Shown: in pieces, positions 14,872-47,688 of the stretch
Numbering within the stretch: position 1 is the stretch's first letter
Layout of the letters: every line of letters begins with the position of its first letter
Assembly: GCF_017833035.1 (NCBI RefSeq)
Contig: NZ_JAFIBM010000001.1
Span: forward strand, 1,860,001-1,924,000
From: Frigoribacterium sp. PvP032
Lineage (GTDB): Bacteria > Actinomycetota > Actinomycetes > Actinomycetales > Microbacteriaceae
Direction of reading: 5' to 3'
Length of the DNA: 64,000 bases
Notes under the pieces: model-generated
Seen by the model: the letters and a program-made list of their open reading frames with translations, nothing else
What the model was told of the DNA's origin: nothing
Database searches by the model: none
Program-made: the position numbers and the translations under genes

Positions 14872-16224
14872 ATGAGTGAGAGCACCGGCACGACGGAGTG
14901 GGACGTCGACGTGTTCCCCGTCGAGGCGCCGCCCTCGCCGCGAGGAGCCCGCACCGCCGTCCCGGCCCCTCCCGCCGCCGACCCCATCACCTCGCCGCAG
15001 GCACCTGCGACGCACGAGCAGGAGCACCGCCCCGTGACACCCGTCCTCGCACCCGAGGCCCCCGCAGCACCGTCCGACGTCCTCGTCACCCGCCGCGATC
15101 CGCGTCCGGTCTCGGTGCCTTCGCACCGCGCCGACACGGCGGACGACGTCGTGCCCACCGACCCGACCGAGCCGCGTCCGGCGAGCGTCGCCCGGCACTC
15201 GGTCGAGACGTCCGCGATCACCCTCCCCGTGTTCGCGCCGGACGTCGACCCCTCCCTGCCCCAGCCGCCCGATCGCCTGACCCTCGACGACGACGTCCTC
15301 GTGAGGATGGTCGAGCGCCGCCTCGACGACACGGCGACCGTCGACCTCATGGCCGTCGTCCAGGCCCAGCTGCAGGCGCGTCGCGTCGAGGCGGCCCGCT
15401 TCGCCTCGTGGGCGCGCGAGATGGACCGCGTCGGCACCGACGAGGCAGCCGACGCCCTCGAGCGCACCCGGCTCCGCTTCACGGGCGTCATCGACGTCGT
15501 GCTGCCCCTCGACCTCGACGACGTCGGCGGCGCCTCGTCCGAGGCGCCGCAGGATCGAGCGTCCGGCGAGGCGTCGTCGGGCTCGGTCGTTCCTCCCTCC
15601 GATGCCTCGGCCGAGGTGGCCCAGGACGGTGCGTCCGCATCGGCGACCGCATCCGAGCCCGTGGCCGAGCCTGCCTCCGTGGCCGCCCCGGCAGCTCACC
15701 CCGCCGCTCCCGCTCCCGCTCCCGCTCCCGCTCCCGCCGCCGTCGAGCCGGCCCGGCCGACCGCCCAGGGCGAGCGGCCCGTTCGTCCCGCGTCGCGCCT
15801 CCTCGTCGTCGTCGGCCTCGTCCTCGCGGGCCTCGTCGTCCTCGCTGCGGTCGTGCTCACCCTCGTCGCTCCTGCCCTCCTCGCCTCCGCCGTGCTCGCC
15901 ACGGTGGCGGTTCCCGTGGCCGGCGGCCTCGGCGCGGCAGCCGCCCTGCTCGCGGTCGTCCACGGCCCGACGGACGCGGAGCGCGTGGCGGTCCGTGGAC
16001 CCGTCGCGGTCGTCGCGGGGATCGTCGTGTCCGCCGCCCTCGGCTACGGCGTCCTCGTGACCGTGCCGGCGTCGCTCGCCTGGCAGGGCTGGCTCGTCCG
16101 GCTCGTCGGCTTCACGGGCATGACGCCAGGGGTCGCCGTCGTCGCCGCGGTCCTCGTGGCGGCTGCCGCCGCCTTCGTCGTGGCCGTGCTCACGACGGGC
16201 CTGCGCCCGACCTCCCGCCGCTAA
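14872..16224 (+). CDS. Hypothetical membrane protein with long disordered N-terminus
   Basis: A 450-residue protein whose family I do not recognise. Residues 1-140 and 210-305 are Pro/Ala/Ser/Glu-rich and presumably disordered, including an alternating Pro/Ala tract near 282-294. Residues about 140-205 (DDDVLVRMVERRLDDTATVD onward) look helical and may be a coiled coil. Four hydrophobic segments fill about 308-448. There is no signal peptide, so the N-terminal part is probably cytosolic. A TACGAT hexamer at 14860-14865 ends 6 nt before the ATG and there is no Shine-Dalgarno sequence, which indicates a leaderless mRNA. It precedes the Nif3 gene by 9 bp. Confidence 0.6.
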   Translation: MSESTGTTEWDVDVFPVEAPPSPRGARTAVPAPPAADPITSPQAPATHEQEHRPVTPVLAPEAPAAPSDVLVTRRDPRPVSVPSHRADTADDVVPTDPTEPRPASVARHSVETSAITLPVFAPDVDPSLPQPPDRLTLDDDVLVRMVERRLDDTATVDLMAVVQAQLQARRVEAARFASWAREMDRVGTDEAADALERTRLRFTGVIDVVLPLDLDDVGGASSEAPQDRASGEASSGSVVPPSDASAEVAQDGASASATASEPVAEPASVAAPAAHPAAPAPAPAPAPAAVEPARPTAQGERPVRPASRLLVVVGLVLAGLVVLAAVVLTLVAPALLASAVLATVAVPVAGGLGAAAALLAVVHGPTDAERVAVRGPVAVVAGIVVSAALGYGVLVTVPASLAWQGWLVRLVGFTGMTPGVAVVAAVLVAAAAAFVVAVLTTGLRPTSRR

Positions 16225-41517: not shown

Positions 41518-41712
41518 CGGCCGATGGCGCCCGTGGTCGGCGTGGCCGACCAGACGTGCAACAATGGGAGTCGGACCCGTTCATGTCCCGTGCAGGTGCT
41601 CGACTCTCGTCGGTGTGCTCAGCCGCGAGGACTTGACATGGGTCCTAGTACTGCCCGAAAGGCCCGTGCACTGCCCTCAAGGCCCAGTGCAGAAGAAGTG
41701 GAAGGTGTTCGC
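41518..41712 (+). promoter_or_regulatory. Promoter and leader of the primary sigma factor gene
   Basis: This 195-bp leader holds an AACAAT-like -10 candidate near 41559-41564, a perfect TTGACA hexamer at 41633-41638 that lacks a matching -10 at 16-18 bp, and a hairpin TGCACTG (41667-41673) / CAGTGCA (41685-41691), with inner CCT/AGG pairing, 21 bp before the start codon. The hairpin sits just ahead of the GGAAGG ribosome-binding site and could affect initiation. Which promoter is used is unclear. Confidence 0.35.
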
Positions 41713-43020
41713 ATGGCTACTCGCAGCAAGGCGACCACGGTCGCCGACGAGACCGTGACCGACGGCGCGGTGCTCGAGACCGAGCCCGCGACGACCGACG
41801 AGGCGCCTGCGGCGCCCGAGAAGGCCCCCGCCAAGCGGGCGCCTGCCAAGAAGACGACGGCTGCGAAGGCACCCGCCGCCAAGAAGGCGGCACCCGCGAA
41901 GGCGGCCCCGTCCAAGGCGGCAGCCGCCAAGGCGGCGAAGGCTGCAGAGCCGGAGGACGAGGCCGAGCCCGTCGACGCCGACGCGGCCGACACCGACGTG
42001 GACGGCGACGGCGACAAGCCCGCAGCTCCCGAGCTGCTCCCCAAGGGCGCGCTCGTCATCTCGCAGGACGACGACGACGAGATGCCCGTCTACTCGACGA
42101 CGATCACCGGCGCCACCGCCGACCCCGTCAAGGACTACCTGAAGCAGATCGGCAAGGTCGCCCTGCTGAACGCCGCTGAGGAGGTCGAGCTCGCCATGCG
42201 CATCGAGGCCGGTCTCTTCGCCGAGGACAAGCTCTCGAACAGCACCGGCCTCAGCAAAGAGCTGGAGCGCGAGCTGCGCTGGGTGTCCCGCGACGGCCAG
42301 CGCGCCAAGAGCCACCTCCTCGGGGCCAACCTGCGCCTCGTGGTGAGCCTCGCGAAGCGCTACACCGGCCGGGGCATGCAGTTCCTCGACCTGATCCAGG
42401 AGGGCAACCTGGGCCTCATCCGTGCGGTCGAGAAGTTCGACTACACCAAGGGCTTCAAGTTCTCGACGTACGCCACCTGGTGGATCCGGCAGGCCATCAC
42501 CCGCGCCATGGCCGACCAGGCCCGCACCATCCGCATCCCCGTGCACATGGTCGAGGTCATCAACAAGCTGGCCCGCGTCCAGCGCCAGATGCTGCAGGAC
42601 CTCGGCCGCGAGCCCACGCCCGAAGAACTCAGCCGCGAGCTCGACATGACGCCCGAGAAGGTCGTCGAGGTCCAGAAGTACGGGCGCGAGCCCATCTCGC
42701 TGCACACGCCCCTCGGCGAGGACGGCGACAGCGAGTTCGGCGACCTCATCGAGGACACGGAGGCGGTGGTCCCGGCCGACGCCGTGGGCTTCACCATGCT
42801 CCAGAAGCAGCTCGAGTCGCTGCTCGACAGCCTGTCCGAGCGTGAGGCCGGCGTGATCCGCATGCGCTTCGGCCTCGGCGACGGCATGCCCAAGACGCTC
42901 GACCAGATCGGCGACACCTTCGGCGTCACGCGTGAGCGGATCCGACAGATCGAGTCCAAGACGATGGCCAAGCTGCGCCACCCGTCCCGGTCGCAGTCGC
43001 TCCGCGACTACCTCGAGTAG
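41713..43020 (+). CDS. sigA: RNA polymerase primary sigma factor
   Basis: Group 1 sigma-70 factor of 435 residues. Residues 1-about 110 are a low-complexity Lys/Ala/Pro then acidic region, as in other actinobacterial primary sigmas. Region 1.2 reads [25 protein letters not shown] (in part [16 protein letters not shown]); regions 2.3-2.4 [20 protein letters not shown]; region 3; region 4.2 helix-turn-helix [20 protein letters not shown]. The C-terminus [14 protein letters not shown] is family-typical. ATG 41713 has GGAAGG upstream. The MurT-like gene starts 4 bp after its stop. Confidence 0.97.
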
Positions 43021-43024
43021 GCCC

Positions 43025-44284
43025 GTGCGATACCTCCTGCCCGTGCTCGCGGGCCGTCTCGTCCGTGCGGTGGCGCGTCTCCGCGGCGGCGGGTCGGCCT
43101 ACCCGGGCCGCACCGTCCTCGCGCTGGCGCCCGACTTCCTCACCCATGTCTCGTCCCAGTTCGAGCAGGGCGTCGTCTTCGTCCTCGGCTCCAACGGCAA
43201 GTCGACGACGACGATGATGCTGACCGAGACGCTGCGGGCCCACGGGCTCCGCGTCTTCACGAACCCCACGGGCGCCAACCTGCCGCAGGGCATCGCCTCG
43301 GCGTTCCTCCGCGAGGTGACGCCCTTCGGGAACGTCAGGCACGACATCGGCGTGATCGAGGTCGACGAGGCCTTCGCCGTCGAGCTCACCCGGTCGCTGC
43401 ACCCGTCGACCGTGCTGATGCTCAACGTGCAGGTCGACCAGCTCTACAGGTTCTTCGAGACCGAGCGCGTCGGCACGATGATGACGGACACCGCCGCCTT
43501 GGCCACGCGCTTCGTCGTGACCAACCGCGACGACCAGCACCTCGCGCCGTACGAGGCGCGGCCGGGCCAGACGGTCACCCGCTTCGGCGCCTCGGCCGAC
43601 GTCGTGGCGGCCGCGCCCAACGGGCTGCAGAACGCGAACGACTTCTCCCGCGAGGCGGACTCCACACGTCCCGTCGAGGCCGAGGTCGTCAGCATGGACG
43701 GCGACCGGGCGGGCATCAGGGTCGGCGAGACGACCGTCGACGTGCGGCTGCCCGCCCGCGGGCTGCACTACGCCGTCGACGCCGCCGCAGCCCTGCAGAC
43801 CGCGTCCGTCGTCCTCGGACGGCCCGTCGACCAGGAGGCGGTGGCTCGCGCCTTCGACACGATGAAGCCGGCCTACGGACGGGGCGAGCGCATGTCGCTC
43901 GGCGCCGACGAGGCCGAGTTCATCATGTTCAAGAACGCGGCGAGCCTGCAGCTGAACCTCGACGCCCTCCCGCAGGACACCGAGCAGGTCATGCTCGCGA
44001 TCGACGAGGGCACGCCCGACATCTCCTGGATCTACGACATCGACTTCTCGCGCCTCGACCACGTCGACGTGCTCGCCGGCGCCAAGGCCTGGCAGCTGGC
44101 CCTGCGCCTCGAGCACGAGGGGATCCCGGTGCACGTGATCGAGGAGGACATCGCGAAGGCGATCAAGCTGATGCGTGCGCTGCCCTCGCCGAGCGACCAC
44201 ACGAAGCACTTCGTCACCAACTACGAGCAGATGATGCTGGCCCGTCGCATCCTCGGCCACCCCGACCTGGAGAAGACCGCGTGA
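43025..44284 (+). CDS. murT: MurT-like Mur ligase (lipid II D-Glu alpha-carboxyl ligase subunit), variant without zinc ribbon
   Basis: Mur-ligase-fold protein of 419 residues. The P-loop GSNGKSTTT (55-63), the GANLPQGIASAF segment, the QVDQLYRFFE helix and the C-terminal DUF1727 domain with DISWIYDIDF (Asp332 at the place of S. aureus MurT Asp349) identify the family, which activates the alpha-carboxyl of D-Glu in lipid II. The four-cysteine zinc ribbon in the middle domain of S. aureus MurT is absent and the protein has no cysteine. The NPAG motif of S. aureus MurT reads NAAS. GTG 43025 starts 4 bp after sigA; the gene overlaps gatD by 4 bp. The product may not be iso-glutamine. Confidence 0.85.
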   Translation: MRYLLPVLAGRLVRAVARLRGGGSAYPGRTVLALAPDFLTHVSSQFEQGVVFVLGSNGKSTTTMMLTETLRAHGLRVFTNPTGANLPQGIASAFLREVTPFGNVRHDIGVIEVDEAFAVELTRSLHPSTVLMLNVQVDQLYRFFETERVGTMMTDTAALATRFVVTNRDDQHLAPYEARPGQTVTRFGASADVVAAAPNGLQNANDFSREADSTRPVEAEVVSMDGDRAGIRVGETTVDVRLPARGLHYAVDAAAALQTASVVLGRPVDQEAVARAFDTMKPAYGRGERMSLGADEAEFIMFKNAASLQLNLDALPQDTEQVMLAIDEGTPDISWIYDIDFSRLDHVDVLAGAKAWQLALRLEHEGIPVHVIEEDIAKAIKLMRALPSPSDHTKHFVTNYEQMMLARRILGHPDLEKTA

Positions 44285-45036
44285 GCGCCGACACCCTCCG
44301 CATCGTCCACCTCTACCCCGAGCAGCTCGGCGTCAGCGGCGACCGGGGCAACGTGACGACGCTCGTCGCTCGTGCTCGGCGCGCCGGCCTCGAGACCGAG
44401 GTCGTCGAGTACCGGGCCGGCGACGGCGTGCCGACGGTGGCCGACGTCGTGCTCCTCGGGCACGGGCCGCTCTCGGGCGTCCGCTCCGTGAGCTCCGACG
44501 CCCAGCGTCTCCTGCCGGCGCTCGAGGGATTCGCGGCTTCCGGCGTGCCCGTCATCGGCGTCGGCGGCGGCATGGAGCTGCTGACCAAGGGCGTCGTCAC
44601 CGACGAGGGCGAGACAGTCCCCGGCATCGGGTTCTTCGACGCCGTGGTGCGCCGTGGTGCTCCGCGCCGCACGAACTACTTCCAGGTGACGACGACCTAC
44701 GGCGGGGACGAGCTCACCCTCTTCGGCTTCGAGGACCACGCCGCCCACCTCGAGCTCGGTGCCGGCGTCGAGGCCTTCGGCCGGGTGGTGCACGGCGGGG
44801 GCAACGGTGCCGACGGCGCCGAGGGCGTCGTGCGCGGCGCCTCCTTCGGCACACAGCTGAAGGGACCCTTGCTGCCGCTCAACCCCGCGCTGAGCGACCG
44901 AGTCCTGCGGGCGGCGCTGACGCGTCGCAGCATCTCGTACCACCCCGGAGACGCGCACGCGAAGCTCGACGAGTACGCGGCGCAGTCCCAGCGGGTCGTC
45001 CGCGAGAACCTCGAGCGGGCCTTCAAGGCCATGTGA
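44281..45036 (+). CDS. gatD: GatD-like class I amidotransferase subunit lacking both catalytic residues
   Basis: A 251-residue partner of the MurT-like ligase. Compared with S. aureus GatD, the nucleophile elbow TICGGYQ reads GVGGGME (Gly95 for Cys94) and the catalytic His of GTYLHGP reads GTQLKGP (Lys194 for His189). The protein has no cysteine at all. The rest of the fold is kept: GDRGNVTTL at the start, GVPVIGVGGGMELL, GFEDHAAHLELG, GPLLPLNPALSD. It therefore cannot release ammonia from glutamine by the known mechanism, yet looks conserved, not decayed. Start and murT stop overlap as GTGA, so the two are translated together. Confidence 0.88.
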   Translation: MSADTLRIVHLYPEQLGVSGDRGNVTTLVARARRAGLETEVVEYRAGDGVPTVADVVLLGHGPLSGVRSVSSDAQRLLPALEGFAASGVPVIGVGGGMELLTKGVVTDEGETVPGIGFFDAVVRRGAPRRTNYFQVTTTYGGDELTLFGFEDHAAHLELGAGVEAFGRVVHGGGNGADGAEGVVRGASFGTQLKGPLLPLNPALSDRVLRAALTRRSISYHPGDAHAKLDEYAAQSQRVVRENLERAFKAM

Positions 45037-45521: not shown

Positions 45522-45591
45522 GTAGGATGGAACCAGACCCCCGCCTCCGGAATTCCCGCCGGTCGGCTCTGCCTCGCGTCAGGAGATCACC
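45522..45591 (+). promoter_or_regulatory. parE promoter -10 and Shine-Dalgarno before a non-standard start
   Basis: TAGGAT at 45522-45527 is a good -10 box. About 55 bases later AGGAG (45581-45585) sits six bases before ATC 45592, the ideal spacing for a start codon there. Between the in-frame stop TAG at 45523 and GTG 45628 no ATG, GTG or TTG exists in the parE frame. Confidence 0.55.

Positions 45592-47688
<2,097 letters not shown>

Follow-up and report, generated by a model that had tools for sequence, protein, structure and literature searches.

A MurT/GatD-type pair without glutaminase residues as a candidate founder of the B-type peptidoglycan bridge in Microbacteriaceae

Introduction

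What can a MurT/GatD-type enzyme do once the residues of its glutaminase are gone? This question is raised by two overlapping genes in a 64,000-nucleotide stretch of DNA from Frigoribacterium sp. PvP032 (contig NZ_JAFIBM010000001.1, positions 1,860,001 to 1,924,000; hereafter the window), the products of which we call MurX and GatX. MurT enzymes form an acyl phosphate on the alpha-carboxyl of D-Glu. In the cited account they are thought to act like other Mur ligases (PMC6085368). An earlier note on this locus had proposed that the ligase joins an amino acid, rather than ammonia, to the carboxyl, and that the pair thereby serves in the cross-bridging of B-type peptidoglycan.

The family to which the organism belongs, the Microbacteriaceae, is described as group B (PMC10978784). 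In Clavibacter michiganensis, D-Dab links D-Glu and D-Ala (type B2-gamma; PMC9603630); Rhodoluna has a type B2-beta wall, and a Gly-D-Glu peptide is said to mark the B-type (PMC4156110); the diamino acids given for Microbacterium are D-Orn, L-Lys or Dab (PMC10757982). Substitution of the D-Glu alpha-carboxyl is not confined to B-type walls, since Intrasporangium carries Gly there in a wall of type A3-gamma (PMC3035309). Among the matches listed in the open-licence literature, none was seen to assign an enzyme to the step that joins the bridge of B-type walls to D-Glu.

Results

MurX and GatX form a MurT/GatD pair without a glutaminase

MurX (419 aa; 43025..44284, plus strand) and GatX (251 aa; 44281..45036, plus strand) are both encoded by open frames, which overlap by 4 nt. 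They lie in a slot bounded upstream by rpoD (41524..43020, plus strand) and downstream by parE (45556..47688, plus strand, its start codon not settled). MurX scored above the Pfam cut-off for PF08353 and PF08245 (MurT_C and Mur_ligase_M), as did GatX for PF07685 (GATase_3), and the proteins matched the MurT of PDB 6fqb (E=1e-26) and the GatD of 5n9m/6gs2 (E=3.5e-20), respectively. The AF2 models agree with these assignments. That of MurX (pLDDT 92.0) retrieved MurT chains at Foldseek ranks 1-13 (TM 0.49-0.67), followed by a MurF (TM 0.68), and that of GatX (pLDDT 95.1) retrieved GatD chains at ranks 1-9 (TM 0.87 to 6gs2_A). Sequence, fold and the order of the genes thus all place the pair in the MurT/GatD group. 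Only the middle and C-terminal families of MurX were above cut-off, and no family of N-terminal UDP-binding domain was found by Pfam at E up to 1. The pair also fell short of the NCBIfam equivalog cut-offs, with 99.5 bits against 800 and 71.8 against 400.

The ligase half retains a P-loop, GSNGKSTTT (residues 55-63; 43187..43213, plus strand), and the Asp of its DISWIYD motif, Asp332 (codon 44018..44020, plus strand), which by alignment corresponds to MurT D349, the third member of the S. aureus triad. These features and the overlapping gene order had all been read correctly in the earlier note. Alignment to S. aureus also bore out its reading of GatX, in which Gly95 (44563..44565, plus strand) stands in place of the nucleophile Cys94 and Lys194 (44860..44862, plus strand) in place of His189; there is no Cys in either protein. 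Glycine at the first of these positions is the very substitution that abolished amidation when introduced into S. aureus GatD (PMC6085368). Isoglutaminyl synthase is therefore the wrong label for the pair, which lacks the defining glutaminase residues.

Loss of the nucleophile is a family trait

A sequencing error, which would have undone these observations, is unlikely because two congeners have the identical Gly and Lys (G035 and G110, loci L036, L109 and L112; here and below G denotes a genome, L a locus, g a genus and f a family). To place the pair among its relatives, 150 genomes of the family were searched with PF08353, of which 103 matched and 91 loci were read, and with a profile, A1, made from 21 type-X MurTs, type X being that of the window. 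Classes were assigned by hand, members without a read locus being classed by bits or genus. This gave 95 genomes of type X, nine of type Y, two of type Z and one of type W, three with a canonical pair whose MurT bears a zinc ribbon (A'), 11 with only a canonical pair lacking the ribbon (A) and 29 without a MurT-like protein. The last class comes from a loose first look, with at most 11 candidates scored per genome in the family and at most five in the order, which a very divergent copy could escape. Two genomes are partial (G038 and G099), and the MurT frame of G101 contains one internal TGA. Besides X, three genomes (G054, G066 and G124) have a canonical pair with Cys and His. Two type-X MurTs were seen in G122 (L059 and L060) and likewise in G113 (L047); at L060 and L047 there is no rpoD beside the pair.

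In the 62 type-X loci that were aligned, the nucleophile column holds Gly in 42, Ala in 14, Ser in three, Thr in two and Asn in one, and Cys in none; in the same analysis Cys and His are kept in 28/28 and 3/3 canonical loci. Because it is lost in every type-X locus aligned and kept in the canonical ones, the absence of Cys is not a matter of chance. The expectation that Cys and His would disappear together across relatives held for Cys (62/62) and failed for His, which is kept in 38 loci, the others having Gln (7), Lys (6), Gly (5), Asn (2), Ala (1) or a gap (3). Three GatX proteins (L032, L041 and L072), from genomes of 1.1-1.5 Mb, are without the His region. The two columns read His then Ile or Leu in type Y (9/9), Gly then Leu in type Z (2/2) and Asn then Leu in type W (1/1). 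Where the nucleophile region would lie, the GatDs of type Y (L019-L026, L066, L283 and L284) have a sequence resembling FTHNALEVLG.

Loss of Cys marks the family. In other families of the order, 33 of the 34 loci read keep Cys and His (14/14 of the top-scoring and 19/20 further ones). Profile matches above 500 bits were confined to Microbacteriaceae among 347 genomes of the order. A ribbon-bearing pair outside the family (L314 of G461, family f7) has Arg and Gln at the Cys and His positions.

The ribbon and the glutaminase were lost separately

Having no Cys at all, MurX has no zinc ribbon, as the earlier note had said. The same note had taken this loss and that of the glutaminase to be explained by one change, an idea that we reject. 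Two CxxC pairs occur in 0/38 MurT rows of canonical group A, and yet the GatDs of this group keep Cys and His wherever they were read; the MurTs of type Y, with a dead glutaminase, have both pairs in 8/11 rows. The two losses were therefore separate events. A zinc finger is described as present in just a subset of MurT proteins (PMC6113224).

A MurT tree of 133 rows (131 of them different; a quick IQ-TREE run with SH-aLRT support only, in which the branches of W and of some X rows are long) placed X in one clade of 68 rows (SH-aLRT 100) beside the ribbon-less canonical group A. A' forms one clade (99), and Y, Z and W group together (95) and are joined with A' (99). Since X lies beside A, and Y/Z/W beside A', there must have been at least two losses of the glutaminase, barring a regain of Cys. 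Judged from these sequences, the Y/Z lineage lost it separately from X.

Rows L070, L072, L078 and L301, three of them X and one A, were removed before positions specific to X were sought; from another alignment, A3, L154 and L209 were left out. In 65 X rows the X-specific positions are S56 (63 rows), Q88 (63), D252 (64), S307 (64) and K354 (58), where group A (37 rows) has T, R, N, G and R. Asp252 of MurX (codon 43778..43780, plus strand) thus stands where canonical MurT has Asn. Common to X, A and A' are Lys59, Asn85, Glu112, Asp114, Glu115, Arg286, Asn304 and Asp332. This pattern fits a working ligase with altered details, and is silent on the choice of nucleophile.

An unrelated ligase occupies the same slot

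In 52 long loci, rpoD lies upstream on the same strand in 46, with four more from an overlapping read, and parE downstream in 42, on the same strand in 37. All three type Y loci read with flanks (L066, L283 and L284) have rpoD upstream; one type Z locus (L296) lies between rpoD and parE, the other (L295) elsewhere. We then scanned genomes with a neighbour protein as query, so that absence of the pair would be visible. Of 134 confirmed loci, the 80 best were taken further; Microbacterium stands in the title of 75, and the other five bear the name of a higher taxon alone. Eight of the 80 stop before parE. The slot held MurT-GatD of type X in 17 and a CofE-like protein in 63 of these best 80 of 134 loci, both in none and neither in none. 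The CofE-like protein belongs to an unrelated family, PF01996, and has no glutaminase; a search with its profile at E 0.01 matched no solved structure. In our counts it scored 25-55 bits, separate from ordinary CofE (155-185 bits).

The slot has further tenants. A racemase pair, consisting of a protein with Ala_racemase_C only followed by one with Ala_racemase_N/C (AlrC/Alr), is present in 76 of the best 80 of 134 loci; of the four without a full pair, three end after the CofE-like gene and one after the first racemase gene. A CofE-like ligase without a glutaminase in the same slot, with racemases so regularly beside it, would fit an amino acid as nucleophile. The racemase pair (L188:14192-14917 and 14899-15954; L149:14400-16210) comprises two partial alanine-racemase-like proteins, one of which, by eye, has an LKDDAYGHG Lys motif and the other RRDAWGHG plus a Tyr-containing C-domain motif, an arrangement that looks like a single composite active site divided between two proteins. 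An ATP-grasp protein (PF14397) is found in 59/63 CofE-like and 0/17 X loci of the best 80 of 134. Among the 150 family genomes it occurs in 19/21 with CofE-like only, 5/9 with Y, 2/95 with X and two others, a count that excludes two partial matches (G053 and G058) above cut-off only with neighbours in frame. X may do alone what the CofE-like protein does with the ATP-grasp protein, or the latter may have another job.

The two ligases exclude each other

CofE-like proteins were found in 23/150 family genomes, distributed as 0/95 with X, 21/29 without a MurT-like protein, 2/2 with Z and 0/24 of the others. X (95) and CofE-like (23) therefore overlap in 0/150 genomes (Fisher 2.5e-12, ignoring kinship). 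In 16 of the 18 genomes, out of these 23, whose slot was read, the CofE-like gene lies there; of the two exceptions, the slot is empty in G094 and holds the racemase pair only in G053. The exchange recurs within genera: in each of six (g7, g9, g13, g57, g76 and g84) one genome has X and another CofE-like, g58 has Y and CofE-like genomes, and in the order sample swaps between X and CofE-like also occur inside g79 and g85, the latter with 5 X to 10 CofE-like. In that sample (347 genomes drawn for MurT, 344 for CofE-like), MurT was present in 131 genomes, CofE-like in 43 and both in 0, counted against 344. In type Z (L295 in G053 and L296 in G123), a very divergent CofE-like protein, a MurT and a dead GatD lie side by side.

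Outside the family, CofE-like was found in 32 genomes (f12, f18 and f6), in 30 of them within frames of 809-1181 aa. The nine that were read are the C-terminal part of an AsnB-type protein, which Pfam confirmed for four of five scanned, and the Cys2 motif of the AsnB part is intact in 7/9. In the other two, L330 and L331, it is lost, and the AsnB half looks dead. These fusions (L323-L328 and L330-L332) were never seen with a MurT match in the sampled genomes, and the fused forms make up one group in a CofE-like tree of 35 rows.

The notion of the pair as the universal B-type enzyme has to be given up as stated. X is missing from 55/150 family genomes; the 29 without a MurT-like protein comprise 21 with CofE-like and eight with neither (G019, G022, G049, G051, G062, G119, G121 and G146), and a further 14 have canonical pairs only, so that 22/150 hold neither a dead pair nor a CofE-like protein. 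None of the ligase genes was found in the slot in seven of those eight genomes (all except G022), and none of these genes in seven of the 14 canonical-only genomes (G003, G014, G024, G047, G059, G070 and G083) or in G005, of type W. In G049 and G119 the slot holds genes that by eye resemble an amino-acid ABC transporter. If these empty-slot or canonical-only species are B-type, a further route or enzyme must exist.

Discussion

Our results suggest a model in which MurX-GatX, with its glutaminase dead, would use ATP to activate the alpha-carboxyl of D-Glu2 in a lipid-linked precursor of the wall. An amino acid, perhaps Gly or a D-diamino acid, would then attack the activated carboxyl through its amine, and the interpeptide bridge of the B-type wall would begin with this bond. 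GatX would be a structural or binding partner. The substrate is suggested by the MurT ancestry of the ligase and the B-type wall by membership of the family; the nucleophile is suggested by the dead glutaminase, the CofE-like replacement and the neighbouring racemases. We consider it probable that the pair joins an amino acid to this carboxyl and so starts the bridge.

The pair shares with MurT-GatD of S. aureus and S. pneumoniae both folds, the gene order and overlap, the P-loop, the common MurT residues and the triad Asp; it differs in lacking the nucleophile Cys (as does every X locus aligned), His in this organism and the ribbon, and in its X-specific residues. With the amino-acid ligases MurC-MurF, for which an amino acid as nucleophile is the normal reaction and the one proposed here, MurX shares the middle-domain family; unlike them it has a GatD-fold partner and no N-terminal UDP-binding domain family. 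CofE, in the cited description, adds L-glutamate to a chain-terminal carboxylate and binds GTP in its structures (PMC10861534). The related gamma-glutamyl ligase FbiB falls in the same comparison, in which the CofE-like protein occupies the slot of MurX-GatX but is of unrelated descent, has no glutaminase and often accompanies an ATP-grasp protein. Finally, the AsnB-type amidotransferases, described as carrying out glutamine-dependent wall amidation (PMC8554201), are fused to CofE-like in three other families; they differ from MurX-GatX in domains and gene, and the window has none.

Several observations sit awkwardly with an amino acid as nucleophile: the eight genomes with neither ligase and the 14 with canonical pairs only, the two Z genomes that hold CofE-like and MurT/GatD together, and the absence of the racemase pair next to X, both in the window and in numerous other genera. 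It is also odd, for a lost glutaminase, that Asp332 is kept, and His in 38 of the 62 loci.

A wider proposal is that the slot holds interchangeable, unrelated ligases (MurX-GatX, the Y/Z pairs, and CofE-like with ATP-grasp), all of which would add an amino acid to D-Glu2 and found the B-type bridge. Whether the alpha-carboxyl is amidated or bears an amino acid would then be predictable from the glutaminase that accompanies a D-Glu ligase, be it GatD or AsnB, according to whether it is live or dead. We put this forward tentatively, as an idea that might about equally fall as stand. The two ligases could instead share the carboxyl and add different residues, so that the choice between them marks wall subtypes and not equivalent enzymes. 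In its favour, the ATP-grasp protein goes with CofE-like and hardly with X, and Microbacterium species do vary in their diamino acid as reported in PMC10757982, where D-Orn is given for M. galbinum and M. sufflavum, from which the CofE-type loci L162 and L163 come; among the matches listed in the open-licence literature, the diamino acid of named Microbacterium species of type X was not found. Swaps that recur inside genera, and the same racemase neighbours with X and CofE-like in the best 80 of 134 loci of the Microbacterium scan, speak against it, and we regard it as a minority view that deserves to be kept in mind.

Once the glutaminase is gone, only free ammonia or some other amine can serve as nucleophile. 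MurX might therefore still amidate D-Glu from free ammonia, with GatX as a mere scaffold. In the tree it comes from the side of a clade that amidates, and it keeps the residues common to canonical MurT groups, including Asp332. Moreover, CofE-like can also go with ammonia, because in other families it is fused to an AsnB-type amidotransferase with Cys2 mostly intact, which suggests amidation there. Nevertheless, we favour an amino acid over ammonia because the replacement within the family is a stand-alone CofE-like protein without a glutaminase, mostly beside racemases, because the glutaminase was lost twice, and because three genomes retain a canonical Cys/His pair alongside X; several positions are also fixed differently in X. 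Free ammonia thus seems unlikely.

It is less likely still that the pair has left lipid II for another substrate, such as a recycled peptide or a wall polymer. Several MurX sites and GatX have diverged, and the Foldseek identity of the two proteins to solved GatD and MurT is merely 20-27%, but Asn85, Glu112, Asp114-Glu115 and Arg286, which canonical MurT also has, are retained in MurX, and canonical-side MurT and CofE-like never occur together in genomes of three other families. That GatX is a decaying pseudogene, as the missing catalytic Cys and His, the His region absent from three of its relatives and a dN/dS of 0.34-0.50 against two genomes of the next genus (g5) might suggest, is scarcely credible given its retention beside MurX in 91/91 loci searched, its confidently modelled fold and a dN/dS of 0.10-0.13 against two congeners (G035 and G110), similar to that of MurX. 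Both genes, at 0.10-0.14 within the genus, are under purifying selection, and at these values GatX is not decaying there.

MurX-GatX and its CofE-like replacement are thus concrete candidates for the D-Glu-linked bridge step of B-type walls. If the proposal is correct, the loss of the ammonia supply would have accompanied a change from amidotransferase to amino-acid ligase at least twice.
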